Source of the DNA: Burkholderiales bacterium
GTDB taxonomy: Bacteria > Pseudomonadota > Gammaproteobacteria > Burkholderiales > Burkholderiaceae_C
Direction of reading: 5' to 3'
NCBI GenBank assembly: GCA_013044035.1
Contig: JABEVE010000016.1
Location: 62,001 to 126,000, forward strand
DNA: 64,000 bases
Of this stretch, positions 50,463 to 60,681 are shown piece after piece. Below the pieces are notes generated by a model. That model did not search any database, was not told the origin of the DNA, and worked only from the letters and a program-made list of their open reading frames with translations. Positions within the stretch are counted from its first letter, which is position 1. Every line of letters starts with the position of its first letter. Position numbers and translations under genes: made by a program.

Positions 50463-50807
50463 GAAGCGGGCCGGGCAGCCGCGCTGGCGTGGGGCGACCC
50501 ACGCGGTGAGGAAGGTCCGGACTCCACAGGGCAGGGTGACGGCTAACGGCCGTGCGCGGTGACGCGACGAACAGGACCACAGAGACGAGTAAGCGCGGCG
50601 CAAGCCGCGTGGACGTGAAACGCGGCAACCTCCACCCGGAGCAACACCAAATAGGCAGGCGGAGCAGGGCTTTCGGGCCTTGTGAAAGCGCGGCCCGCGC
50701 GAGCCTGCGGGTAGGTGGCAACGAGCCGTTGCGGTAACGCGCGGCCCAGAGGAATGGCTGCCACGTCGGGTAACCGATGCACAGAATCCGGCCTACAGGC
50801 CCGCTTC
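50463..50807 (+). ncRNA. rnpB: RNase P RNA (class A)
   Basis: The 5' end GAAGCGGGCC (50463-50472) pairs perfectly with GGCCCGCTTC (50798-50807), closing the P1 helix. Universal RNase P elements are present: GAGGAAGGTCCGGACTCCAC near the 5' side, ACAGGGCAGGGTGACGGCTA, the GGTAAACG-type region (here GCGGTAACGCGC), and ACAGAATCCGGCCTAC near the 3' end. A GATAAT box at 50449-50454 lies eight bases before the 5' end and is the probable -10. The RNA is about 345 nt. It processes the 5' ends of tRNA precursors. Confidence 0.96.
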
Positions 50808-51110
50808 GCATTGTTTTCAGGTTTGGTGCTGGGGCCGGGCTGCCGAGCGGTTCGGATCGAGAGGTGCCGGGCGTGATGCGCCCGTCTGCACCGAAGTGGC
50901 GCCAAGCGATGTGTTCCCCCCGACGGCGCAGCCATCGGAGTAGACCTGTCGGCGACGACGATGTCCATCACCAAGTCTTGCCCGTGCAGTCAGATCACAG
51001 TGGCGATCTCGCGCGATCACCAGGCCCGCGCAAATGTCCATCTCGAAGCGCACCTCTGAGCTCAATGTCACTGGTTACCATCGCCCGACAGTCCAATCCA
51101 GGGATCAACC
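50808..51110. other. 303-bp gap between rnpB and the GST-like gene
   Basis: No gene-like open frame, tRNA or clear repeat is seen. A short T-rich stretch just after the RNase P RNA (ATTGTTTTCAG) may help 3'-end formation. The promoter of the GST-like gene presumably lies here, but no good consensus was found. Confidence 0.5.
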
Positions 51111-51737
51111 ATGGAACTCATCGGCATGCTCGACTCACCTTATGTGCGCCGCGTCGCGGTGTCGCTGCAACTGCTCGGCCTGGAGTTCAGGCACCGCCCC
51201 TTGTCGGTGTTCCGCACCTTCGAGCAGTTCCAGCGCATCAACCCGGTGGTCAAGGCGCCGACGTTGATCTGCGACGACGGCCAGACCCTGATGGATTCCA
51301 GCCTGATCCTGGATTACGCCGAAGCCTTGGCAGGACCCGGAAAGTCGCTGCTGCCGCACGATATCGCGCCGCGCCAGCAGGCCCTGCAGCGCGTTGGTCT
51401 GGCGCTCGCGGCTTGCGAGAAGAGTGTGCAAATCGTCTACGAACGCAATCTGCGTCCCGTCGAGAAGCGCCACGAACCCTGGCTGCAACGCGTGACGGGC
51501 CAACTTCTGAGCGCCTACGACGGGCTCGAGGCAGCGTTGGCGCAGCAGCCTTTCGACGTGCAACTGCAAGCAGGCATCTGCACCGCCGTGGCTTGGATGT
51601 TCACGCAACAAACGGTACCCGATTGCGTCGACGCTGCGCGCTATCCACATCTAGCGGCGCATTCGGCCCAAGCCGAGCAACTGCCCGCGTTCCGTGCTGC
51701 GCCCTATGGCGATGGCACCTATCCTGTCCAGGTTTAA
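51111..51737 (+). CDS. Glutathione S-transferase-like protein
   Basis: This 208-residue protein has a thioredoxin-fold N-terminal domain (MELIGMLDSPYVRRVAVSLQ, NPVVKAPTLICDDGQTLMDS, with the Pro and Ser expected for glutathione binding) and a helical C-terminal domain. The set matches bacterial GSTs. The substrate is unknown. Its stop codon overlaps the stop region of the convergent DUF190 gene at 51734-51737. Confidence 0.86.
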   Translation: MELIGMLDSPYVRRVAVSLQLLGLEFRHRPLSVFRTFEQFQRINPVVKAPTLICDDGQTLMDSSLILDYAEALAGPGKSLLPHDIAPRQQALQRVGLALAACEKSVQIVYERNLRPVEKRHEPWLQRVTGQLLSAYDGLEAALAQQPFDVQLQAGICTAVAWMFTQQTVPDCVDAARYPHLAAHSAQAEQLPAFRAAPYGDGTYPVQV

Positions 51738-52051
51738 GGCCACCCGCACTGCGCCTGCCAGGAGACGATATGCCCGGCTGGCACCATCTGCTGGATGCGG
51801 GGCAGCACGGAGGCCACCACCTCGGGGTCGTCGTAGAACTCCAGCACAAGCGGCAGATGCACGTTCAGGCGCAGCAGATCGTCGGCATGCACCTCCCCCT
51901 TGCTGCCGAAACCGGCCACGCCACGAAACACGGTGACGCCGTGGACCTTGTGCTGTTCGTGCAGCAGCTTGAAGATTTCATGCATCAGGTTGTGGCCCTG
52001 CACCTTGTCGCCTTCCTTGATGTAGATGCGCGCCATCGTGACGGTTTTCAT
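51734..52051 (-). CDS. DUF190 protein
   Basis: This 105-residue protein has the DUF190 pattern (ARIYIKEGDKVQGHNLMHEI, HGVTVFRGVAGFGSKGEVHA, LPLVLEFYDDPEV). The fold is PII-like, and these proteins are frequently encoded beside crcB. It is the last gene of the minus-strand operon headed by the fluoride riboswitch, three bases after the second crcB. A regulatory or accessory role in fluoride export is suggested by this neighbourhood, but its function is not established. Confidence 0.87.
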   Translation of the reverse strand: MKTVTMARIYIKEGDKVQGHNLMHEIFKLLHEQHKVHGVTVFRGVAGFGSKGEVHADDLLRLNVHLPLVLEFYDDPEVVASVLPRIQQMVPAGHIVSWQAQCGWP

Positions 52052-52054
52052 GGG

Positions 52055-52432
52055 TCAGACTCCCAGGGTGTGTGAAAGATAGGCGCCGAGCGCCGTGCCC
52101 AGCATGGACAAGACAACGGACAGAACCACGTAGAGCCAGGCCTTGGCAGCCTCGCCGTTTTCAATCAGGGTCAGGGTTTCCAACGAAAAGGTGGAAAACG
52201 TGGTGTAGGTGCCGACACCGCCCGTGAGGATGCCGGTGCGCATGGCCGGGCTGATGGCGGCATATTTCAGGGTTTCGTCAAACAGGAAGCCCATCAGGAA
52301 CGAGCCGACGATATTGATCGACAGCGTGGCGAAGGGGAACGACCTCCCCAGCGCGCGCTGCACGACGAGGGTGTGCCCGTAGCGGCTGAAAGCGCCGATG
52401 AGCGCGAAGATCGCGATGTAGAGAAATGTCAT
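52055..52432 (-). CDS. crcB: Fluoride channel CrcB/Fluc, second copy
   Basis: This 125-residue fluoride-specific channel subunit has four membrane helices. Family motifs are GAFSRYG, ATLSINIVGSFLMGFLF (with the conserved Asn) and GTYTTFSTFSLET (with the Phe residues that line the pore). The start at 52432 (MTFLYIAIFALIG) is preferred to 52534, which would overlap the upstream crcB. It is 16 bp after the first copy and similar to it throughout. Fluc channels work as antiparallel dimers, so the two copies may form homodimers or a heterodimer. Expression is probably under the riboswitch at the operon head. Confidence 0.93.
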   Translation of the reverse strand: MTFLYIAIFALIGAFSRYGHTLVVQRALGRSFPFATLSINIVGSFLMGFLFDETLKYAAISPAMRTGILTGGVGTYTTFSTFSLETLTLIENGEAAKAWLYVVLSVVLSMLGTALGAYLSHTLGV

Positions 52433-52448
52433 CGAAGTCGCTCGCGGC

Positions 52449-52835
52449 TCAGGAGTCGGTGAATTGCAGATGGCGCGACAGATAGGCGCCGAAGAACGCG
52501 GCGGCGACCGACAACACCACGGACGCGCCGACATAGAGAGCCGCCAGGATCAAATGCCCGAGTTCGAGCAGATGGATGGCCTCGATGGAGAAGGTGGAAA
52601 ACGTGGTGTAGGTGCCGAGACCGCCGGTGAGAATGCCTGTGCGCAGCTCCGGGCTGACGTTGATGCGCTCCAGCGTTTCGAAAAACAGGAAGCCCATCAG
52701 GAACGAGCCCAGCACATTGATCGACAGGGTGGCGAACGGAAAGGCGTCGCCGAGCACGCTCTGCACCACGAGAGACTGCCCATAGCGGGCGAATGCGCCC
52801 AGGATGGCGAAAATGGAGATGTAAACGGAAACCAT
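52449..52835 (-). CDS. crcB: Fluoride channel CrcB/Fluc, first copy
   Basis: This 128-residue four-helix channel has the same motifs as the following copy: GAFARYG, ATLSINVLGSFLMGFLF and GTYTTFSTFSIEAI. It expels toxic cytoplasmic fluoride down its electrochemical gradient. It begins 138 bp after the HyfB-like gene. That gap holds a small hairpin (GTGCCG/CGGCAC on the minus strand) but no fluoride riboswitch of its own, so control probably comes from the distant operon leader or from an unseen internal promoter. Confidence 0.93.
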   Translation of the reverse strand: MVSVYISIFAILGAFARYGQSLVVQSVLGDAFPFATLSINVLGSFLMGFLFFETLERINVSPELRTGILTGGLGTYTTFSTFSIEAIHLLELGHLILAALYVGASVVLSVAAAFFGAYLSRHLQFTDS

Positions 52836-52973
52836 GAAACGTCCTGAAAATCAAGAATGAGTGGGTCGTGCCGCGGTGTCGGCACGGTGCGCGGCCCGAG
52901 CTGACGCGACGACAACCGGGATTGTTGTTGTTTTCTCGGGGGCGGTTGGCTCGCAGCGGTTGTTGTGCGCGCA

Positions 52974-54992
52974 TCAGGTTGGCGGCGTCCACACCAGGAC
53001 CAGCCCGAACACCAGCACCAGCAGGATGCCGATGTAGGCGAGATAGGCGTTCATCAGGCCGTTCTGCAGAAAGCGCAATCGGCGCGCCAGCCACTCCACC
53101 GTACGCACCGCCGGGGTGAACAGCAGCGCGCCGAACATGGGGGCCTGCGAATAGCTGAACTGCAGTTCCCTGAGAAAGTAGGGCTTGCCTTCGAACTGTC
53201 GTGCCACGGCGTTGTGGGGACGATAGACAAAGTTGTAGAACACCCGCATCGCGTTGGAGAACGACAACGCGGTGGTCGCTCCGGCGTGGGCGGCATAGTC
53301 TTCGCCGCCGCACCACAGCGGCGCGCGGCGCACCGCAAAGCGCCTGCGGCCCCAGACCAGCCAGAGTGGCAACAGCGACAACAGCGGCACGGCCAGCACC
53401 AGCATGGCTGGGGAGATAAAGGCAAACCCGGCCGACAATGGCACCAGCAGCCAGCCATGGGTCATCTGCCGTGCAGCGTCCGCGGCGGGCCACGCGGCCT
53501 GTTGCATCAGCGGCAGCCACCACACCAGGGTCACGGCGAACACCGGCACGGCCAGCCCGGTGATGAGCACGGAGAGCGTTTGCAATGCCGTCAGTTTCGC
53601 CTGGTGTTTGCGATGTTGCGCGGAGTGTTCCTCGTTCTGGCCCAGCAGACCGACGCCGAACAGTTTGACCATGGTCGCCAGGGCGATGGCGGCGGTCAGC
53701 GCCAAGCCCGCCCCGGCCAGCGCCAGGGCGATGCGCGAGCCGTCGCCTTTCAGGGTGAAGTCGTGGAACAGGGTCTGGAACAAATACCACTCGCTCACAA
53801 ATCCGGCGGTGGGTGGCATGGCGGCCAGGCTCATGACCGCGAACACCGCGCCCAGGCCGAGGGTGAGTGGCGCATGGCGCAGGATGGCGCTTTGGCGCAG
53901 ATGATGGTTGCCCTGCAGCGCGGCGGCTGAATCGGCCGTGAGAAACAGGCTGCCCTTGGCCAGACTGTGGCCCATCAGGTGAAGCATGCCAACCGTCCAG
54001 GCCAGCGCCGACAGCATGTTCTGGCCACCGGCACGGAAAATCAGCGCCGCGCCCAGCGCGGTCACCGCAACCCCGGCGTTCTCGGCGGAGGAAAACGCCA
54101 GCAGCCGCCGCCAGTCGCTTTGCTGGAAGGCGTAGAGGATGGCGAGGATGGCCGTGAACGTGCCCGCCGCCAGCACCACCACACCAAAGCCCGCCAGCCA
54201 GGGCGGGTTGCCCATCCATTGCAGCAGCGCACGACCCAGCGCGAAGTAGGCGGCGTTCAGGACGATGCCCGACATGAGCGCGCCGGTGGAGCCGCTGCCG
54301 CTGCCGTAAGCCCCCGGATACCACTCGTAAAACGGCAGCAGCCCGAGCTTGGCGCCGAAGCCGGCCAGCCACAACAGGCCGAGGACAAGGGCCGGGGCCA
54401 CGCCCCATCCGGTCCACCGCAGGGCGTAGGTGCCGAAGGCCAGACTCGGTCCCAGCATCAACACCGCCAGCAGCAAGGCCACGCCACCCACTTCCAGCAG
54501 CGCGAGCATGAACAGGTTGTCGTACCCAGCCTGCACGCTGCGATGATCCGCCAGCAGCATGAGCGCGCCGCCGAACCCCATGGCCTCCCAGGCGATGAGA
54601 AAACTCGCGCCGTCTTGCAGGCCGTACACGCCCAAAGCGCCGAGCAGCGACAGCGCCGCGCCCGTGGCCCAGCCGCGTGTGTGCTGGGTGCCGCCGCACA
54701 AGGATGCAAAAAATGCGGGCAGCAGCGCGGGCAGCATCAGCCACAGCGCGGCGGCATCGGGGTGGAAGATGACGGGGTCATCGCCGAGTTGCAGCACGGC
54801 CTGCCCCGCGCTACCGCCGGGCAGGCCCCACAGCGCGCCGACGGCGGCGAACGCGCAGCCCAGTCCGAGCAGCAGGCGGGGCAGGGCGGTGCCCAGGAAT
54901 AAATCGACCAGAAGCGCCAGCACCCAGACCAGCGCCGCAAGGCCAAAGGCGCTGAGGGTGATGGAACTGGCGATGGCGTCAGGCAGATTCAT
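52974..54992 (-). CDS. HyfB-like antiporter-type membrane subunit (NuoL/M family)
   Basis: This membrane protein of 672 residues has about 14-16 helices. It belongs to the proton-translocating antiporter-like family of complex I and group 4 hydrogenases. LLPFYEWYPGAYGSGSGSTG and ALMSGIVLNAAYFALGRALL are the core motif; GMLHLMGHSLAKGSLFLTAD contains the conserved His and Lys. The ATG at 54992 follows GGAGG and overlaps the end of the HyfI fusion. In hydrogenase 4, HyfB is usually encoded first; here it is the last complex gene, just before crcB. It should carry ion flux driven by the redox arm. Confidence 0.85.
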   Translation of the reverse strand: MNLPDAIASSITLSAFGLAALVWVLALLVDLFLGTALPRLLLGLGCAFAAVGALWGLPGGSAGQAVLQLGDDPVIFHPDAAALWLMLPALLPAFFASLCGGTQHTRGWATGAALSLLGALGVYGLQDGASFLIAWEAMGFGGALMLLADHRSVQAGYDNLFMLALLEVGGVALLLAVLMLGPSLAFGTYALRWTGWGVAPALVLGLLWLAGFGAKLGLLPFYEWYPGAYGSGSGSTGALMSGIVLNAAYFALGRALLQWMGNPPWLAGFGVVVLAAGTFTAILAILYAFQQSDWRRLLAFSSAENAGVAVTALGAALIFRAGGQNMLSALAWTVGMLHLMGHSLAKGSLFLTADSAAALQGNHHLRQSAILRHAPLTLGLGAVFAVMSLAAMPPTAGFVSEWYLFQTLFHDFTLKGDGSRIALALAGAGLALTAAIALATMVKLFGVGLLGQNEEHSAQHRKHQAKLTALQTLSVLITGLAVPVFAVTLVWWLPLMQQAAWPAADAARQMTHGWLLVPLSAGFAFISPAMLVLAVPLLSLLPLWLVWGRRRFAVRRAPLWCGGEDYAAHAGATTALSFSNAMRVFYNFVYRPHNAVARQFEGKPYFLRELQFSYSQAPMFGALLFTPAVRTVEWLARRLRFLQNGLMNAYLAYIGILLVLVFGLVLVWTPPT

Positions 54993-55869
54993 ACACGCCT
55001 CCATGCACCCGCTGCGGCTTGCGTCGCAGCAGCAAAAGCAGCGCCTCGATCAATGCTGCCGGGTTGGGTGGGCAGCCGGGCAGCCACACATCCACCGGCA
55101 GGATGCCCTCCAGCCCCTGATGGCAGGCGTAGCCGCCGCCATTGGTGCCGCCGCCGGTGGCGCAGGTGCCGGCCGCCATCACCCAGCGCGGTTGCGGCAA
55201 GGCCTCATAGGTGCGCAGCAGCGGCTCGCGCATCGCGGCAGTGACGGGGCCGGTGACCAGCAGCAGATCGGCGAAACGCGGCGACGGGGTGAAGAACACA
55301 CCCAGCCGGTGCAGGTTGTAGAAGGGGTTGAGCAGGGCTTGCAGTTCGCTCTCGCAGCCGTTGCACGAACCGGCATCGACATGCCGGACGTGCAGGCTCT
55401 TGCCGAAGATTTTGAGTTCTCGCGTGAGCGCTTGTTCGTTCGAGTCTCCCCCTCCTGACTTCCCCCACGCGGTGGGTGAGGAATGGTCCGCTCCCTCTCC
55501 ACGATGTGGGGAGGGTTGGTGTGGGGAGGTTTCTACCAAACCCCGATTCAACAAATCCGCCTTGTCGCGCACGCCGAATGCCCAGTCGTGGCTGATGCTG
55601 AACGCACCCGCGGGGCAGACCTCGGTGCAAAGCTGGCAGCCGACGCAGCGGGCATAGTCGAGTTGCACCTGCTGGCCAGTATCGACCCCAATGGCGGAGG
55701 CTGGACATGCGGCGACGCAATCGTTGCAGCCGCTCTGCGTCGCGTTGCAGCGCGTCGCGTCTAAACGTGGCAGACCGAGCACGCCCTCCTGCCCGTCGGG
55801 GCCGGGATGCTGCGGCCAGGGCGTGGTGGCGCGGCCTTTGTGCAATCCGAACCACGTCCATAGCGGCAT
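54979..55869 (-). CDS. Ferredoxin domain fused to HyfI/NuoB-like small subunit
   Basis: This 296-residue protein joins an N-terminal 8Fe ferredoxin-like domain (HyfH/NuoI-like) to a small subunit like HyfI/NuoB. The first cluster has Cys in CNATQSGCNDCVAACP (unusual C-x6-C start). The second is the regular CVGCQLCTEVCP. The small-subunit part keeps the N2-type ligands SCNGCE, GTCATGG and LPGCPP. Residues ~113-142 (TSPHQPSPHRGEGADHSSPT and beyond) look like a translated intergenic repeat inserted between the domains. ATG 55869 after AAGGAGACGACC is preferred to 55893, which overlaps the HyfG stop. It should pass electrons from a soluble donor towards the membrane. Confidence 0.85.
   Translation of the reverse strand: MPLWTWFGLHKGRATTPWPQHPGPDGQEGVLGLPRLDATRCNATQSGCNDCVAACPASAIGVDTGQQVQLDYARCVGCQLCTEVCPAGAFSISHDWAFGVRDKADLLNRGLVETSPHQPSPHRGEGADHSSPTAWGKSGGGDSNEQALTRELKIFGKSLHVRHVDAGSCNGCESELQALLNPFYNLHRLGVFFTPSPRFADLLLVTGPVTAAMREPLLRTYEALPQPRWVMAAGTCATGGGTNGGGYACHQGLEGILPVDVWLPGCPPNPAALIEALLLLLRRKPQRVHGGVYESA
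55447..55534. repeat. Repeat-like palindromic sequence inserted in frame
   Basis: This 88-bp stretch contains CCCCCACGCGGTGGG and TCCCTCTCCACGATGTGGGG with GGGTTGGTGTGGGGAGG. It resembles the dispersed intergenic palindromes of many proteobacterial genomes rather than coding sequence. It encodes a Pro/Ser/Gly/His-rich linker between the ferredoxin and small-subunit domains and does not break the frame. No second copy was seen in this window. Confidence 0.55.
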
Positions 55870-55879
55870 GGTCGTCTCC

Positions 55880-57400
55880 TTACCGATCGGCACCGGCGAC
55901 GGACAGGCCGAAGCTGGCCTCGTTGATGGCGTAGTCCATCATGTTGCTGTCCTCCACGGTGAAGGGGAACACCCGCCAGTTGGAAAACGACGGGTCCTTG
56001 ATCTTGACGCGCTGCAGTCGGGTGCGGCTTTCATCCAGATGAACCGCGTAGAGCAGCCCGCCGCGCGTGCCCTCCACCCAGCCTAGGCCTTCGCCTTGCG
56101 GGTCGGGCTCCTCCATCACGTCGCAGCGCAGCACCGAACCGGGTTTGACGCGGCCGATGGTCTGGCGAATGATGGCCAGTGACTCGCGGATTTCCGCCAT
56201 GCGCACCAGCGAGCGGGCATGGGCATCGCCGACTTGTTGCACGGGCACGGAAAAGCGCACCTTGTCGTAGTTGGCGTAAGGGTGGTCGCGGCGCAGATCG
56301 CGGTCGAGGCTGCTGGCGCGCTCGATCGGTCCGCATGCGCCCTGGTCGAACGCAACCTGGCGGTCGAGGTGGCCGGTCGTCATCAGGCGGTCGAGATGGC
56401 TGCGGGTGCTTTCAAGGCGCTGCAGATAGCTGGCGATGTCGTCGGTGACCGTGTCGAGCGCGGCGTCCAGGCCGCTCACATCGAGGTCGCGGCGCAACCC
56501 GCCGGGGGTGATGAGGCCGCGCAAAAACCGGCTGCCAGTGAGTTTGCCGTTGATCTGCTTGAGCCGTTCTTCGAGCAACAGCCCTTGCGCCTCGCCCACT
56601 TTCAACGTGGTGGTCTTCGACAGATGGCCGAGATAGTGCAGATGGTTGTAGAGCCGCTCCAGCTCCGCGAGGATGACACGCAGATAGCGCGAGCGCGGCG
56701 GCGCACGCCAGCCCATCGCGCCTTCCACCGCCTGCACAAACGCCAGCGCGTGCGCCACCGAGTCGATGCCGCTGACCCGCTCGGCGAGCGTACTGCCCGT
56801 GCGCGCATCCGCTCCCTGGAACCGCGCTTCCATCGCGCGGTGTTTGTAGAACAACCGCGGGTGATAGTGCAGGATGCCTTCGCCGATGTAGAAGAACAGG
56901 AATTGGGCCGACTCCACGATGTCCGCCCGCACCGGGCCGAAGGGCAGGCGCTGGATGTCCGGCCCCAAGACCTGCGGCACGATCGGCGGCTGTGGCGTGA
57001 AATCGAGAGCCGCGGCATGGATGTCGAAACCATGCGCAAGCGGCGCGGATTCGCGCGGCATGCCTTCGTGCAGCACCAGCGGGTTGGGTTCAGGGTGGCC
57101 AGTAAAACGCAGGCCGTCAAGGTCCATCATCTCGCGCTCGTACCAGCCCAGCAACGGCAGCTTGTTGGCCAGCGAGGGCAGGGTGCGGTCCTCTGGGCGC
57201 ACGCGCCAGACTTTGTAGGGCTGCTTGGCGCCCTGACTCAGCACATAGATCACGTCCAGCCCGCCGTCGCTGCAGCCGCAGGCGTAGGCCATCTGCATGC
57301 GGCCATGGGCGCTGGGGGTGTCGCCCAGCGCGGTGAGCAGGACGTCGGTGGCGGCAGGCAACTCTGCAGGGCTCAGGCGGATGGTGTCGCAGTGGCGCAT
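55880..57400 (-). CDS. HyfG-like large subunit without NiFe ligands (Ehr type)
   Basis: This 506-residue protein fuses a NuoC-like N-terminal domain (LPLLGWYEREMMDLDGLRF, ~residues 81-99) to a NuoD/hydrogenase-large-subunit domain. In NiFe hydrogenases the first metal motif is ER-I/V-CGxC. Here it reads ERVSGID, with Ser210 and Asp213 in place of Cys. The C-terminal DPCxxC is also absent; the protein ends SFGLSVAGADR, closer to the metal-free NuoD end. So it cannot bind NiFe and is not a hydrogenase. This matches energy-converting-hydrogenase-related (Ehr) proteins. It starts one base after the HyfF-like stop. Its redox partner is unknown; quinone is one possibility. Confidence 0.87.
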   Translation of the reverse strand: MRHCDTIRLSPAELPAATDVLLTALGDTPSAHGRMQMAYACGCSDGGLDVIYVLSQGAKQPYKVWRVRPEDRTLPSLANKLPLLGWYEREMMDLDGLRFTGHPEPNPLVLHEGMPRESAPLAHGFDIHAAALDFTPQPPIVPQVLGPDIQRLPFGPVRADIVESAQFLFFYIGEGILHYHPRLFYKHRAMEARFQGADARTGSTLAERVSGIDSVAHALAFVQAVEGAMGWRAPPRSRYLRVILAELERLYNHLHYLGHLSKTTTLKVGEAQGLLLEERLKQINGKLTGSRFLRGLITPGGLRRDLDVSGLDAALDTVTDDIASYLQRLESTRSHLDRLMTTGHLDRQVAFDQGACGPIERASSLDRDLRRDHPYANYDKVRFSVPVQQVGDAHARSLVRMAEIRESLAIIRQTIGRVKPGSVLRCDVMEEPDPQGEGLGWVEGTRGGLLYAVHLDESRTRLQRVKIKDPSFSNWRVFPFTVEDSNMMDYAINEASFGLSVAGADR

Positions 57401-57401
57401 C

Positions 57402-58859
57402 TCACACCCCTCCCAGTTGCGTAGCGATGCCAGCCAGATGGGTCCAGATCGGTGGCAACCACCACAGCCCGAGCAGCAGGATGACGGCCAGAGCCACGGC
57501 CATTGGCGCCACGTGCGTGAAACCGAGTTTCAGGTGTGGCGCGTGCTCCGGCCGCGAGCCGAAATACATCGCGCGGAAGTGGTTGAGAAAGCCGATGAAG
57601 ATGACGATGAGCAGCACCGCCATCCACCACACCGCCCAGGGATTGGCGCTTTGCATGCCACCGCGCAGGATGGCGAGTTCACTCAAGAACAGACCGAACG
57701 GTGGCGCGCCGGTGATGGCCACGGCTCCAGCCAGCCACATCGCTCCGGAGCGCGGAAAAAAGCGCAGCACGCGGCGGATTTTGCCGATGTCTTTGCTCGC
57801 GTAAGCATGCATCGTGTTGCCCGCACCGAAGAACACAAGCGACTTGGTGAGCGAGTGATTGAGCATGTGATACAGCGCGCCGATCACCCCTAGGGGTCCG
57901 CCGAAACCGAAGCCCAGCGCGACCACGCCCATGTGCTCCACGCTGGAATAGGCGGCGAGGCGCTTGATGACGGTCTGGCGGCTGATGAACAGCGCCGCCA
58001 CCAACAGGCTGAACGCGCCCAGCACCACGAGTGCGGTGCGCGCCGTGGCCTCGATGCTGGTGTGCTGCAGGATGTTGAGGTAACGCACGATGCCCAGCAT
58101 GGCGCAGTTGAGCAGTGCACCCGACAGCATGGCCGACACTGGCGCCGGGCCTTCGCTGTGCGCATCCGGCAGCCAGGTGTGCATCGGCGCCAGGCCGACC
58201 TTGGTGCCAAAGCCCACCAGCACGAGCAGGAAGCTGAGCAGCAGCAACATCGGCTCGGCCTTGGGCGCGATGCCGGCGAGGTTGGCCCAGGTCATGTCGT
58301 ACTCCGGGCCGAGGATGAACGTGCCGGCCCAGTAAAACAGCACCGTGCCCAGCAGCGCCAGGCCAAGACCTGCGGAGACGATGACGATGTACTTCCACGC
58401 CGCCTCGATGCTTTCCGGCGCGCGCTGAAACCCCACCAGAAACGCGCTGACGATGGTGGTGAGGTCGATGGCGATCCAGTACAGCCCCGGGTTGTTCTGC
58501 ACCGGCGCCAGAAACATGCTGAGCGCAAACGCGGCGAACAGGCTGTAGAAGCGGTGCAATCGCGCCAGCTCCCCATGCATCCAGCGCATGTAGCCGATGG
58601 CGTAGACGCTGGCCAGCAGATAGACGATGGCCAGGCACAGCATGACCCACACGCCGAAGTCGTCGAGCAGCAGGTAGTGATTCAGCGCGGTGATGGCGGT
58701 GTCGGGCGTGGCGATAAGCAGCACGATCACCAGGATGAGGTCGATGATCGCCGCGGCGAGGTTCAGCGCCTCGGCAATGCGGCTGCGGCGCGATGCCCAG
58801 CTTCCCACCGCCGCGAGCGCTGTGACGGCCCAGATCGCATACATGGCATTCCAGATCAT
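57402..58859 (-). CDS. HyfF-like antiporter-type membrane subunit (NuoN/M family)
   Basis: This 485-residue membrane protein has about 14 helices. The core motif is APMHTWLPDAHSEGPAPVSA with MLSGALLNCAMLGIVRY following, as in HyfF, HycC and NuoM/N. GALYHMLNHSLTKSLVFFGA carries the conserved His and Lys of the ion path. It is the second antiporter-like subunit of the complex besides the HyfB-like protein. It sits between the HyfE-like and HyfG-like genes, in the usual Hyf order. Ion translocation is inferred from the family. Confidence 0.87.
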   Translation of the reverse strand: MIWNAMYAIWAVTALAAVGSWASRRSRIAEALNLAAAIIDLILVIVLLIATPDTAITALNHYLLLDDFGVWVMLCLAIVYLLASVYAIGYMRWMHGELARLHRFYSLFAAFALSMFLAPVQNNPGLYWIAIDLTTIVSAFLVGFQRAPESIEAAWKYIVIVSAGLGLALLGTVLFYWAGTFILGPEYDMTWANLAGIAPKAEPMLLLLSFLLVLVGFGTKVGLAPMHTWLPDAHSEGPAPVSAMLSGALLNCAMLGIVRYLNILQHTSIEATARTALVVLGAFSLLVAALFISRQTVIKRLAAYSSVEHMGVVALGFGFGGPLGVIGALYHMLNHSLTKSLVFFGAGNTMHAYASKDIGKIRRVLRFFPRSGAMWLAGAVAITGAPPFGLFLSELAILRGGMQSANPWAVWWMAVLLIVIFIGFLNHFRAMYFGSRPEHAPHLKLGFTHVAPMAVALAVILLLGLWWLPPIWTHLAGIATQLGGV

Positions 58860-58895
58860 GCCTTGCTCCAGGTGCTGTGCAATGCACCCATCGCC

Positions 58896-59576
58896 TCACC
58901 CCACCAACCGGGTGAGTTCGCGGCTGCTGGTCGTTCCCACTTCCTTGTGCAGGAAGCGGATCAGCATGCCGAAGGTGGAGACGATGATCAGCAGGTCGAA
59001 CAGGATCACCATTTCCAGCAGCAGCGGCATGCCCGGCACCAGGATTTGCGAGCCGAGAAAAATGCCGTTCTCGATCACCAGCAGGCCGAGGATGGAACTC
59101 ACCGCCTCCGCGCGCAACACCAGCATCAGAAAGCCGATGAGCTTGAGCGCGAACATGGCGGTCAGCGCCAGCACGGCGATGTTGTCGACCAGGTTCATGC
59201 GCACGCCCAGCTTCTCGGCCACTGCGTAGGAAAACAGCACCAGAAAGCCGCCGAGCACGATGCTCGACGCCGGTTGCAACAAGGGCGTGAACTCGCGGTT
59301 CTGCCCCAGGCCGTTGACGATGCGCACCAGCAGATACGGCAGCAGGGTGCCGCGAAACAGCGCGGTCAGCGCGGCGATGAAAATCAGCTCCGGGTAATGT
59401 CCGGTGATGCCGATGGCCAGCGACAGCGCCGCAATCACCCATGACTCGGCGGCGAAGGCCAGGATGTGGTTCTTGATCCAGTGCGATCCCAGCATGACGA
59501 AGGCCAGGATGAGCGCGATGATGATCAGCAGGCTGAAGATGGATGCCTGCACGCCGCCAAGGTGGAAAATCAACAT
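58896..59576 (-). CDS. HyfE-like membrane subunit (NuoK-related)
   Basis: This 226-residue membrane protein has about seven helices. The C-terminal half (GLLVIENGIFLGSQILVPGM) resembles NuoK/MrpC with a conserved acidic residue. The N-terminal half is the HyfE-specific extension. It begins 16 bp after the HyfC-like stop. Such subunits connect the antiporter-like subunits to the HyfC subunit and may take part in the ion path. Confidence 0.83.
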   Translation of the reverse strand: MLIFHLGGVQASIFSLLIIIALILAFVMLGSHWIKNHILAFAAESWVIAALSLAIGITGHYPELIFIAALTALFRGTLLPYLLVRIVNGLGQNREFTPLLQPASSIVLGGFLVLFSYAVAEKLGVRMNLVDNIAVLALTAMFALKLIGFLMLVLRAEAVSSILGLLVIENGIFLGSQILVPGMPLLLEMVILFDLLIIVSTFGMLIRFLHKEVGTTSSRELTRLVG

Positions 59577-59592
59577 GGCCCCTGTCCTCTGC

Positions 59593-60537
59593 TCAAACCT
59601 GTCGCGCGACGATGGCGAGGATGGCCATCAGGAAGGACAGCGCCAGCGGTTCCTGATAGCGGTAAAAGCGCAGGCGCGACTGCGCGGTATCGACGAACAC
59701 CATGATGAGCCCCAGCAGCGCCCACTTCGCCAGCAGCGCCACGGTGGCGCCGGCGATGCCCAGCGCGGTGCCCTGGATGGACAAGCCCCAGGGGATGGTC
59801 AGCACATTGAGGAAGATGGTGTAGAGAATGGCCTGCTTCATCCACGATGCCCACTTCAGCAGCGCCAGCAGCGGGCCGGAGTATTCGAGGATGCGCGCCT
59901 CGCCGATCATGTAGATCTCATCGTGGATGCTCGAATGGATCGGCAGGCGCTCGGTTTCCACCGTGAGCAGAATGAAAAACGCCGCCACCAGAAACAGATG
60001 CGCCGGGCCCCAGAACACCGCCGGCTGCGCCACCAGCAGGTGATTGACGACGAAGGGCAGCATGGCTTGTGCCAGCAGGGTGATGCCAATGAACACCATG
60101 ATCAGCGTCGGCTCGGCCAGAATCGCCAGCATGGCCTCGCGGCTTGACCCCAGCCCGCCATAGGGATGGCCGCTATCGAGACCTGCGAGCAGGATGGCGA
60201 AGCCGCCCAGCGTCAGAATGAGGCCACCGCCCAGCATGTCGCCCATGTCCGAGAGCGGCAGCGGGTAGTTGGTCAGCACCGGGATGAGCAGGGGCACCGT
60301 GAGCATGGCCGCGAATGCCACGATGGGCGCGGCCCAGAAAATCCAGGAGGCCGTCTGCGGCACCACGATCTCCTTGCGGAACCACTTGAACAGATCGCGG
60401 TAGGCCTGGAACAGGCTGGGGCCTGCGCCGCGCTGCACCTTCTCTTCCATCATGGCGATGAAACCGTACAGCAGGGGCGAGAGCAACACAACCGCCAGAA
60501 CCTGGGCGATTTGCTGCCATACGGCTTGTGCTTGCAT
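59593..60537 (-). CDS. HyfC-like membrane subunit (NuoH family), first gene of the operon
   Basis: This 314-residue protein of about eight helices is related to HyfC/HycD and NuoH, the membrane subunit that docks the redox arm. AMMEEKVQRGAGPSLFQAYR and LFKWFRKEIVVPQTASWIFW are the typical N-terminal region. HSSIHDEIYMIGEARILEYS corresponds to the NuoH loop that contacts the redox subunits and the quinone cavity in complex I. The ATG at 60537 has a strong site GGGAGGAG a few bases upstream. The fluoride riboswitch lies directly before it. Confidence 0.87.
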   Translation of the reverse strand: MQAQAVWQQIAQVLAVVLLSPLLYGFIAMMEEKVQRGAGPSLFQAYRDLFKWFRKEIVVPQTASWIFWAAPIVAFAAMLTVPLLIPVLTNYPLPLSDMGDMLGGGLILTLGGFAILLAGLDSGHPYGGLGSSREAMLAILAEPTLIMVFIGITLLAQAMLPFVVNHLLVAQPAVFWGPAHLFLVAAFFILLTVETERLPIHSSIHDEIYMIGEARILEYSGPLLALLKWASWMKQAILYTIFLNVLTIPWGLSIQGTALGIAGATVALLAKWALLGLIMVFVDTAQSRLRFYRYQEPLALSFLMAILAIVARQV

Positions 60538-60539
60538 CG

Positions 60540-60637
60540 ACTCCTCCCATGCAGATCACCCACCGCACGCAGCGGCACTGGGTAGGAGTCATCAGCCCCG
60601 GCTGGCGCCGGGGCGGTTGCGGCGAACTCCATCGCCG
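60540..60637 (-). promoter_or_regulatory. Fluoride (crcB-motif) riboswitch with translational expression platform
   Basis: On the minus strand the leader reads GGCGATGGAGTTCGCC (60636-60621), then GCAACCGCC, a GC hairpin (GCCCCGGC / GCCGGGGC, 60595-60614), and GGGGCTGATGACTCCTAC near the 3' side (to 60582). This order of conserved blocks is that of the crcB-motif fluoride riboswitch. The GACTCC strand can pair with GGAG in the 5' hairpin loop, as in the fluoride-bound pseudoknot. The overlapping GACTCCTACCC (60580-60590) can instead pair with the Shine-Dalgarno GGGAGGAGTC (60539-60548) of the HyfC-like gene. Fluoride should therefore free the ribosome site and turn the operon on. The aptamer match was recognised by eye, and the switch mechanism is inferred. 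Confidence 0.87.
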
Positions 60638-60652
60638 TCTCGTTTGTGACGA

Positions 60653-60681
60653 GTTTAAAAGCGTCGAAAGTCGTAGGTCAA
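60653..60681 (-). promoter_or_regulatory. Promoter of the riboswitch-headed operon
   Basis: On the minus strand TTGACC (60681-60676) and TTTAAA or TTAAAC (about 60659-60653) are separated by 16-17 bp. The predicted start near 60646 would place the aptamer almost at the 5' end of the transcript. The -35 box is good; the -10 box is weak. Confidence 0.55.

Follow-up and report, generated by a model that had tools for sequence, protein, structure and literature searches.

A separate clade of Hyf-like complexes without a [NiFe] site, linked to the fluoride riboswitch, and its possible role in fluoride defence

In a 64,000-nucleotide stretch of a Burkholderiales genome (contig JABEVE010000016.1 of assembly GCA_013044035.1; hereafter the window, meaning the whole stretch analysed), a fluoride riboswitch aptamer is followed on the minus strand by six Hyf-like genes in the order HyfC-E-F-G-I-B, then by two CrcB genes and a DUF190 gene, as identified with Pfam and NCBIfam. 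We show here that the six genes belong to a well-supported separate clade of Hyf-like complexes without a [NiFe] site, for which we use the name F-Ehr. With slightly less than even confidence, we favour the reading that the complex is a dedicated ion-moving complex of fluoride defence, which would provide a defence of its own beyond helping CrcB and would be driven by electrons or by an ion gradient depending on the lineage, the ion moved being either H+ or fluoride.

Distribution of the complex and its riboswitch

Relatives of the complex were gathered by HyfG similarity from 120 near genomes, from plasmids and from 84,980 species genomes, of whose 513 relatives the best 80 were taken, and riboswitch positions were scored with our own model (R1) and with Rfam. 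In a quick tree of 73 HyfG rows, with support from the Shimodaira-Hasegawa-like approximate likelihood ratio test (SH-aLRT) only, all 28 rows then scored as switch-bearing fell within one clade of 38 rows (SH-aLRT 99); these 28 were collected by HyfG, but the query alignment had been built from sequences with a known switch. One row of this clade (L095), scored as switch-less at first, was later found to have an extended aptamer core. A second tree of the same kind, with 88 rows, gave a clade of 53 rows (SH-aLRT 100), of which 48 have a switch, five were not assessable and none lacks one; seven of the 48 (L072, L094, L095, L108, L110, L147, and L148) rest on sub-threshold scores, the pairing scan described below or reading of the leader, and nine were found through the riboswitch and hence are not independent. 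Outside the clade lie 30 rows scored without a switch; nine of them are complex I, [NiFe] or far outgroup sequences, and the remaining 21 are closer relatives. Gene order is C-E-F-G-I-B inside the clade versus mostly B-C-E-F-G-I outside. The first-pass annotation of the window had linked an Ehr-like complex to fluoride, and this survey of other genomes, with the switch found clade-wide, supports a conserved link.

A HyfG profile run over 229 genomes of the window's class (E <= 1e-60) matched two groups of loci, six scoring more than 570 bits and 35 scoring no more than 372 bits. At five of the six high-scoring loci a riboswitch was known from an independent RNA search. For the sixth (G148), that search gave no switch and Rfam reports none, but inspection of its leader revealed a diverged aptamer (17.7 bits; E = 3.6e-5 over 17 kb) whose pseudoknot is intact, 72 nt before the HyfC match. 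None of the 35 low-scoring loci is on a contig with a switch from the independent search. An RNA search of 369 genomes of the class, made with strict filters, found 26 riboswitches over the cut-off, 10 of which lead into hyfC; a CrcB match is present in the 3-kb locus of 10 of the 26, about the same number. Because such a share of these riboswitches leads into the complex, we regard it as a main, unexplained output of the fluoride regulon.

In the window, the aptamer match to RF01734 (59.7 bits, gathering cut-off 34) lies 38 nt upstream of hyfC and is the single fluoride riboswitch match of Rfam in the entire 3.7 Mb window genome, so that the crcB-motif aptamer recognised in the leader by the first-pass annotation is confirmed by the covariance model. 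A chance match was ruled out by its E-value (4.9e-14), by recurrence of the switch across the clade and by the pairing scan. Downstream of the aptamer, the Shine-Dalgarno block GGGAGGAGTC pairs with the aptamer strand GACTCCTACCC with a mean pairing probability of 0.96 in the leader folded without ligand, and its AGGAG is 0.92-1.0 unpaired once the pseudoknot strands are barred from pairing, which mimics the fluoride-bound form. Because the block opens when these strands are kept unpaired, the folding suggests that the window leader may act as a translational ON switch. A complement to the leader's own aptamer strand was longer than in shuffles in 15 of 32 leaders (P <= 0.05, from simple shuffles and related rows), and it matches the aptamer type, being directed to ACTCC, ATGCC or ACCCC. 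In several leaders (L051, L059, L064, L074, and L103) the complement runs into a T-run and is terminator-like; the window leader and its close kin use the ribosome site, not a T-run. Beyond the operon end of a near relative, another fluoride aptamer is found on the other strand (L057, 3067-3131, plus strand), and the downstream open reading frame (ORF) is HIT-family-like by eye.

The aptamer cores of actinobacterial members carry a longer insert and lie below the Rfam cut-off (L095, 6780-6853; L108, 6707-6793; L147, 8485-8542; also L110 and L148). Such extended aptamers were detected by pairing scans (L095, L108, and L147) or by reading of the leader (L072, L094, L110, and L148). Both R1 and Rfam miss or underscore them; Rfam reports nothing in L148 and no fluoride match in L147. 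The pairing scan, whose rules were set after the leaders had been inspected, gave 46 matches in 1.56 Mb versus none in reversed sequences, one of the 46 (L130) being probably spurious. At low scores R1 does not discriminate: a better match lies inside hyfC in L147 (14.6 bits) and on the opposite strand in L094 (23.8 bits), and switch-less loci have R1 matches of 11-17 bits, none of them upstream of the first gene on that gene's strand. A tRNA-Sec gene is located immediately upstream of the operon's aptamer core in L095 (6629-6720, plus strand).

Ligand residues of HyfG and HyfI

By sequence and by fold, the nearest solved protein to the window HyfG is E. coli HycE (7z0s_E), with a template modelling score of 0.88 for the AlphaFold model (mean predicted local distance difference test score 85.3). 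This likeness is what speaks for a formate hydrogenlyase or hydrogenase. "Formate hydrogen lyase" genes have been linked to the fluoride riboswitch in print since 2010 (in part of PMC2864571), and a passage of a 2024 review repeats the label and reads it as a metabolic shift, that is, as a switch to anaerobic metabolism (PMC11139923); the first-pass annotation had rightly named such genes among those associated with the motif. The printed genes are very probably those of F-Ehr under a wrong name. In the open-licence literature searched, no paper was found that treats the complex as a distinct clade lacking the [NiFe] site or assigns it a role.

The Ni ligands of HycE (C241, C244, C531, and C534) correspond to Ser, Asp, Ser, and Gly in the window HyfG. 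All four Cys are missing in 48/48 switch-bearing rows, and all four are kept in 12 of the 30 rows without a switch. HypD, which is needed for building [NiFe] sites and was the only Hyp gene searched, has no match in the window genome (G000, 95% complete); counting this genome, 24 of the 38 clade genomes searched gave no match. The other 14 have HypD and may own other hydrogenases, and among eight genomes of relatives with all four Cys, five have it. The nine window gene products, scanned with Pfam and NCBIfam, include no formate dehydrogenase and no HycB/HyfA-like partner. With the Ni ligands missing and HypD not found in the window genome, a formate hydrogenlyase or hydrogenase was rejected for the window, and as an explanation of the complex we consider it hardly credible. 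Because the four Ni-binding Cys are missing in every switch-bearing row, the label "formate hydrogen lyase", judged by these residues, does not fit the switch-bearing clade. The non-hydrogenase nature claimed for the complex in the first-pass annotation is supported by the same residues.

The quinone site of complex I is also missing from HyfG: its Tyr is absent in 48/48 switch-bearing rows and its His in 47/48, the exception being the second copy in L156, which is switch-bearing and keeps the His. In the window HyfG, the positions of NuoCD H224 and Y273 are Val and Gly. A complex I or quinone reductase was thus ruled out. Mrp antiporters consist of the Mrp membrane set without NuoB/NuoD-like subunits, and the row contains homologues of HyfG and HyfI, so this assignment was not adopted either. 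The window complex has the make-up of Ehr complexes, with group 4-like subunits lacking Ni/Fe ligands and with antiporter-like subunits; the Rv0082-Rv0087 locus of M. tuberculosis is presumably another example.

The cluster ligands of HyfI vary across the clade. In class A (23 rows, including the window), all eight ferredoxin Cys and all four N2-type Cys are intact (23/23). Class B (13 rows) has ligands for only one ferredoxin cluster (13/13), and the fourth N2 ligand is Asn in three rows. In class C (six actinobacterial rows), Asp, Glu or Ser occupies every N2 position seen (6/6; the last position is cut off in L110), and in class D (four rows from the actinobacterial phylum) two of the four N2 positions are non-Cys (4/4). 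Because the N2-type ligands are lost in all class C rows, the complex of at least this one lineage would, as far as its sequence tells, lack the known route by which electrons reach the HyfG pocket. The HyfG genes of class C contain no internal stops and are 48-64% identical to that of L108, and an aptamer core precedes hyfC in all five members whose leader was seen. Loss is the presumed direction in which the redox parts changed; relatives outside the clade vary too, and the ferredoxin domain fused to HyfI is not clade-specific, being present in L078 and L079 outside the clade.

These residues bear on a further explanation, in which the complex carries out an uncharacterised redox reaction, serving as an electron sink or bypassing metalloenzymes that fluoride inhibits, and ion movement is secondary. 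The HyfI electron path is complete in class A, and HyfG could accept another substrate, since its pocket has neither the Ni ligands nor the quinone-site Tyr and is almost always without the His. However, no donor or acceptor gene is found among the nine, and one actinobacterial subclade lacks the cluster adjacent to the pocket. We regard this explanation as distinctly improbable.

Membrane arm, CrcB and the proposed role in fluoride defence

Passages of the 2024 review state that entry of hydrogen fluoride (HF) lowers cytoplasmic pH and the proton-motive force, that Na+/H+ antiporters are common outputs of fluoride riboswitches, and that Fluc is a passive channel driven by the membrane potential (PMC11139923). 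In the defence reading that we favour, HF would enter and its fluoride would activate the switch, which in the window would expose the ribosome site; the complex would then move ions across the membrane and relieve the acid and charge load of HF and F-. In the window lineage, electrons from a ferredoxin-like donor may drive it through three [4Fe-4S] clusters, whose ligands are intact. In the actinobacterial lineage, ion movement would be driven otherwise, as in an antiporter, because the ligands of the last cluster are gone.

CrcB was not found in 15 of the 40 genomes carrying the complex; four of these 15 (G234, G118, G331, and G148) are at least 94% complete, some are incomplete, and completeness figures are lacking for genomes reached via named loci. 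In the window's class at large, CrcB is present in 147 of 185 genomes. Ten of the 15 genomes have CLC genes (18 in total), and the other five gave no match to CLC. None of the 18 CLC reading frames contains the fluoride motif GEVTP or GNN.L/GMGL; near variants, GIVTP and GVVTP, are present in two. As a control, both motifs are present in CLCs of two of five loci (the riboswitch-rich L051 and L097), the three without them (L053, L064, and L067) not being known to hold a CLC. L177 has one GDISP match, which lies on the strand that does not encode the CLC. In G118, G331, and G234, all riboswitches found with strict filters (one, one, and two, respectively) lead into the complex, the three genomes being of one family and not independent. 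Because no CrcB was found in 15 genomes and their 18 CLC genes show no fluoride signature, the complex probably does more than assist CrcB.

In the membrane arm, residues of HyfB, HyfF, and HyfC were compared at the ion-path positions of complex I. HyfF keeps the Glu/Asp of transmembrane helix 5 (TM5), the Lys of TM7 and the Glu of TM12; HyfB keeps most of the matching residues, and Glu157, Glu220, and Glu228 of HyfC are kept in nearly all rows. At the TM8 Lys position of HyfB (K265 in NuoM, K252 in E. coli HyfB), all 39 clade genes of sufficient length for comparison have Asn, against Lys in 19 of 20 ordinary genes. At TM8 of HyfF the residue is neutral in the clade, and likewise in E. coli HyfF and in six of seven ordinary complexes. 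The comparison yielded no fluoride-binding motif. One class B operon contains two consecutive HyfB-like genes, both with Asn at TM8 (L162, 2308-6116).

The riboswitch and its recurrence throughout one clade, the missing Ni ligands, the ion-path residues kept at TM5, TM7 and TM12, the N2-type ligands lost in class C and the genomes without CrcB count in favour of the defence reading. Other observations weigh against it. In the rows compared, neither antiporter-like subunit of the clade has an ionisable TM8 residue, and ordinary proton pumping by the complex appears doubtful because this position is Asn in HyfB and neutral in HyfF. CrcB is, after all, present in 25 of the 40 genomes with the complex. 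All four N2-type Cys are kept in 33 of 46 HyfI rows, which argues that electron transfer still matters in most members. By our own reasoning from the weak-acid equilibrium, H+ extrusion without a fluoride exporter would raise F- accumulation, which fits the CrcB-less genomes badly.

An unlikely alternative is that the complex itself exports fluoride, as F- or HF, having been derived from a proton-pumping complex and serving as the main defence where CrcB and CLC-F are missing. The CrcB-less genomes, including the five without any CLC match, speak for it, and so do the lack of fluoride motifs in the 18 CLC genes, the change from Lys to Asn at TM8 and a redox cluster that is dispensable in one subclade. 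Nevertheless, no fluoride-binding motif was identified, CrcB accompanies the complex in most of the genomes and, in the window, stands in the same gene row, two of the CLCs carry near variants of the motif, and an unrecognised exporter may exist elsewhere in the CrcB-less genomes, some of which are incomplete. No member of the superfamily is known to transport halides, which also counts against an exporter.

Rather improbable, in our view, is a proton pump driven by redox chemistry, which would restore pH and membrane potential and thereby let the passive Fluc channels expel F-. Fluc being passive and driven by membrane potential (as stated in part of PMC11139923), the presence of CrcB in the window gene row and the intact clusters of class A would suit such a pump; the loss of N2-type ligands in class C, their partial replacement in class D, the loss of the TM8 Lys and the absence of CrcB matches in 15 of the 40 genomes do not. 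The first-pass annotation had pictured something close to it, a redox-driven ion-translocating complex supporting survival within a fluoride-stress operon. Its riboswitch, non-hydrogenase complex, gene row and fluoride link all stood, but a redox-driven pump that aids survival alongside CrcB has become doubtful for the reasons of the lost class C cluster, the TM8 Asn and the CrcB-less genomes.

The window locus, fluoride islands and known systems

The row of six Hyf-like genes, two crcB genes and DUF190 behind the leader, as first described, is confirmed by Pfam/NCBIfam matches and ORF coordinates (table 1); the span of 52055-60681 given to it falls short at one end, since DUF190, its last gene, ends at 51734. 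From hyfC to DUF190, the intergenic gaps by ORF coordinates are 16, 36, 1, -14, -26, 138, 16, and 3 nt, in that order, and no terminator-like site is listed in the 138-nt gap between hyfB and crcB. Both CrcB copies exceed the Pfam CRCB cut-off. About 0.9 kb past the operon end, a class A RNase P RNA gene lies on the opposite strand (50463-50811, plus strand). Elsewhere in the window genome, a second, ordinary B-first Ehr-like complex is present (L164, contig C59), where no fluoride riboswitch was found.

Table 1. Features of the fluoride riboswitch operon in the window
Feature	Position	Strand	Evidence
Promoter-like TTGACC-18-TAAACT, adjoining the aptamer 5' side	60652-60681	-	Consensus match only, 9/12, weak
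Fluoride riboswitch aptamer RF01734, pseudoknot strands GGAGT/ACTCC	60576-60645	-	59.7 bits, E 4.9e-14
Predicted expression platform with Shine-Dalgarno block GGGAGGAGTC, complementary to aptamer 3' strand GACTCCTACCC	60538-60575	-	Pairing probabilities
hyfC-like (NuoH-like) membrane subunit, 314 aa	59593-60537	-	PF00146, 106 bits
hyfE-like membrane subunit, 226 aa	58896-59576	-	NF008556, E 1.2e-14, below its cut-off; no Pfam match
hyfF-like antiporter-like subunit, 485 aa	57402-58859	-	PF00361; hydrogenase 4 subunit F models below cut-off
hyfG-like (NuoCD-like) large subunit, 506 aa, 0/4 Ni-ligand Cys	55880-57400	-	Pfam/NCBIfam, alignment, fold match
hyfI-like small subunit, 304 aa, 2x[4Fe-4S] ferredoxin domain fused to NuoB-like domain, 8 + 4 cluster Cys intact	54979-55893	-	
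hyfB-like antiporter-like subunit, 676 aa, Asn250 at TM8 Lys position	52974-55004	-	Pfam/NCBIfam, alignment
crcB (Fluc fluoride channel), first copy	52449-52835	-	PF02537, 88.5 bits
crcB, second copy; start internal to a longer listed ORF	52055-52432	-	PF02537, 89.8 bits
DUF190 protein	51734-52051	-	PF02641, 92.1 bits

On plasmids of Caballeronia, Burkholderia multivorans, and B. cenocepacia (L051, L052, and L053), the operon is located amid three, four, and six fluoride riboswitches, respectively, within 17 kb. Other switch-led genes on these islands and at related loci encode inorganic pyrophosphatase, a HAD-type protein (weak Pfam match), DUF190, CrcB, CLC with GEVTP, a MutS-domain ATPase and proteins without a Pfam match; gene kinds like these appear in the lists of the fluoride regulon in parts of two papers (PMC2864571 and PMC11139923). 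The MutS domain V proteins behind fluoride riboswitches are at L051:582-2150 and L070:14750-16282, and riboswitch-linked proteins without a Pfam match are at L053:1760-2473 (minus strand), L052:12304-13629 (minus strand), and L103:14575-15405. One of the Pfam-less families, seen in L052, L053, L064, L067, and L097, has a DFLWWFIQGS(I/L)MD stretch in common across these five loci. A DUF190 protein beside the island riboswitches of L052 (4163-4531) also matches the P-II family (E = 2.1e-6), and the HyfF of L053 is split over two frames. In L066, L099, and L156, two fluoride-linked complexes are adjacent, one from each main subclade.

As a candidate means of fluoride defence, F-Ehr would stand beside Fluc and CLC-F, and its genes are candidate fluoride-tolerance genes for organofluorine biotechnology. 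It also offers a natural series of complex I relatives in which the redox parts differ and most of the membrane arm is kept, which bears on the coupling of redox and ion movement. Should the exporter explanation be true, a machine of the complex I family would have been rebuilt into a fluoride exporter, serving as the main defence where no CrcB or CLC-F exists.

Among known systems, Fluc/CrcB and CLC-F share the riboswitch control, and CrcB the gene row, with the complex; their proteins are unrelated to it, and it occurs also where neither was found. The E. coli Hyc/Hyf formate hydrogenlyases have homologous subunits, with HycE close in fold to HyfG, but the window row differs in having no Ni ligands and no HyfA/HycB-like or formate dehydrogenase gene, as well as in a genome where HypD was not found. 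Respiratory complex I has NuoB/C/D/H/L/M-like subunits in common with it, whereas the window row has no NADH module and the clade lacks the quinone-site Tyr and, in all but one switch-bearing row, the His. The closest resemblance in make-up is to the Ehr complexes, for which redox-coupled ion translocation is only suspected in their description in PMC6349859: both have group 4-like subunits without Ni/Fe ligands and antiporter-like subunits, and F-Ehr differs in its C-E-F-G-I-B gene order, in its fluoride riboswitch and in the Asn that takes the place of the TM8 Lys of HyfB.

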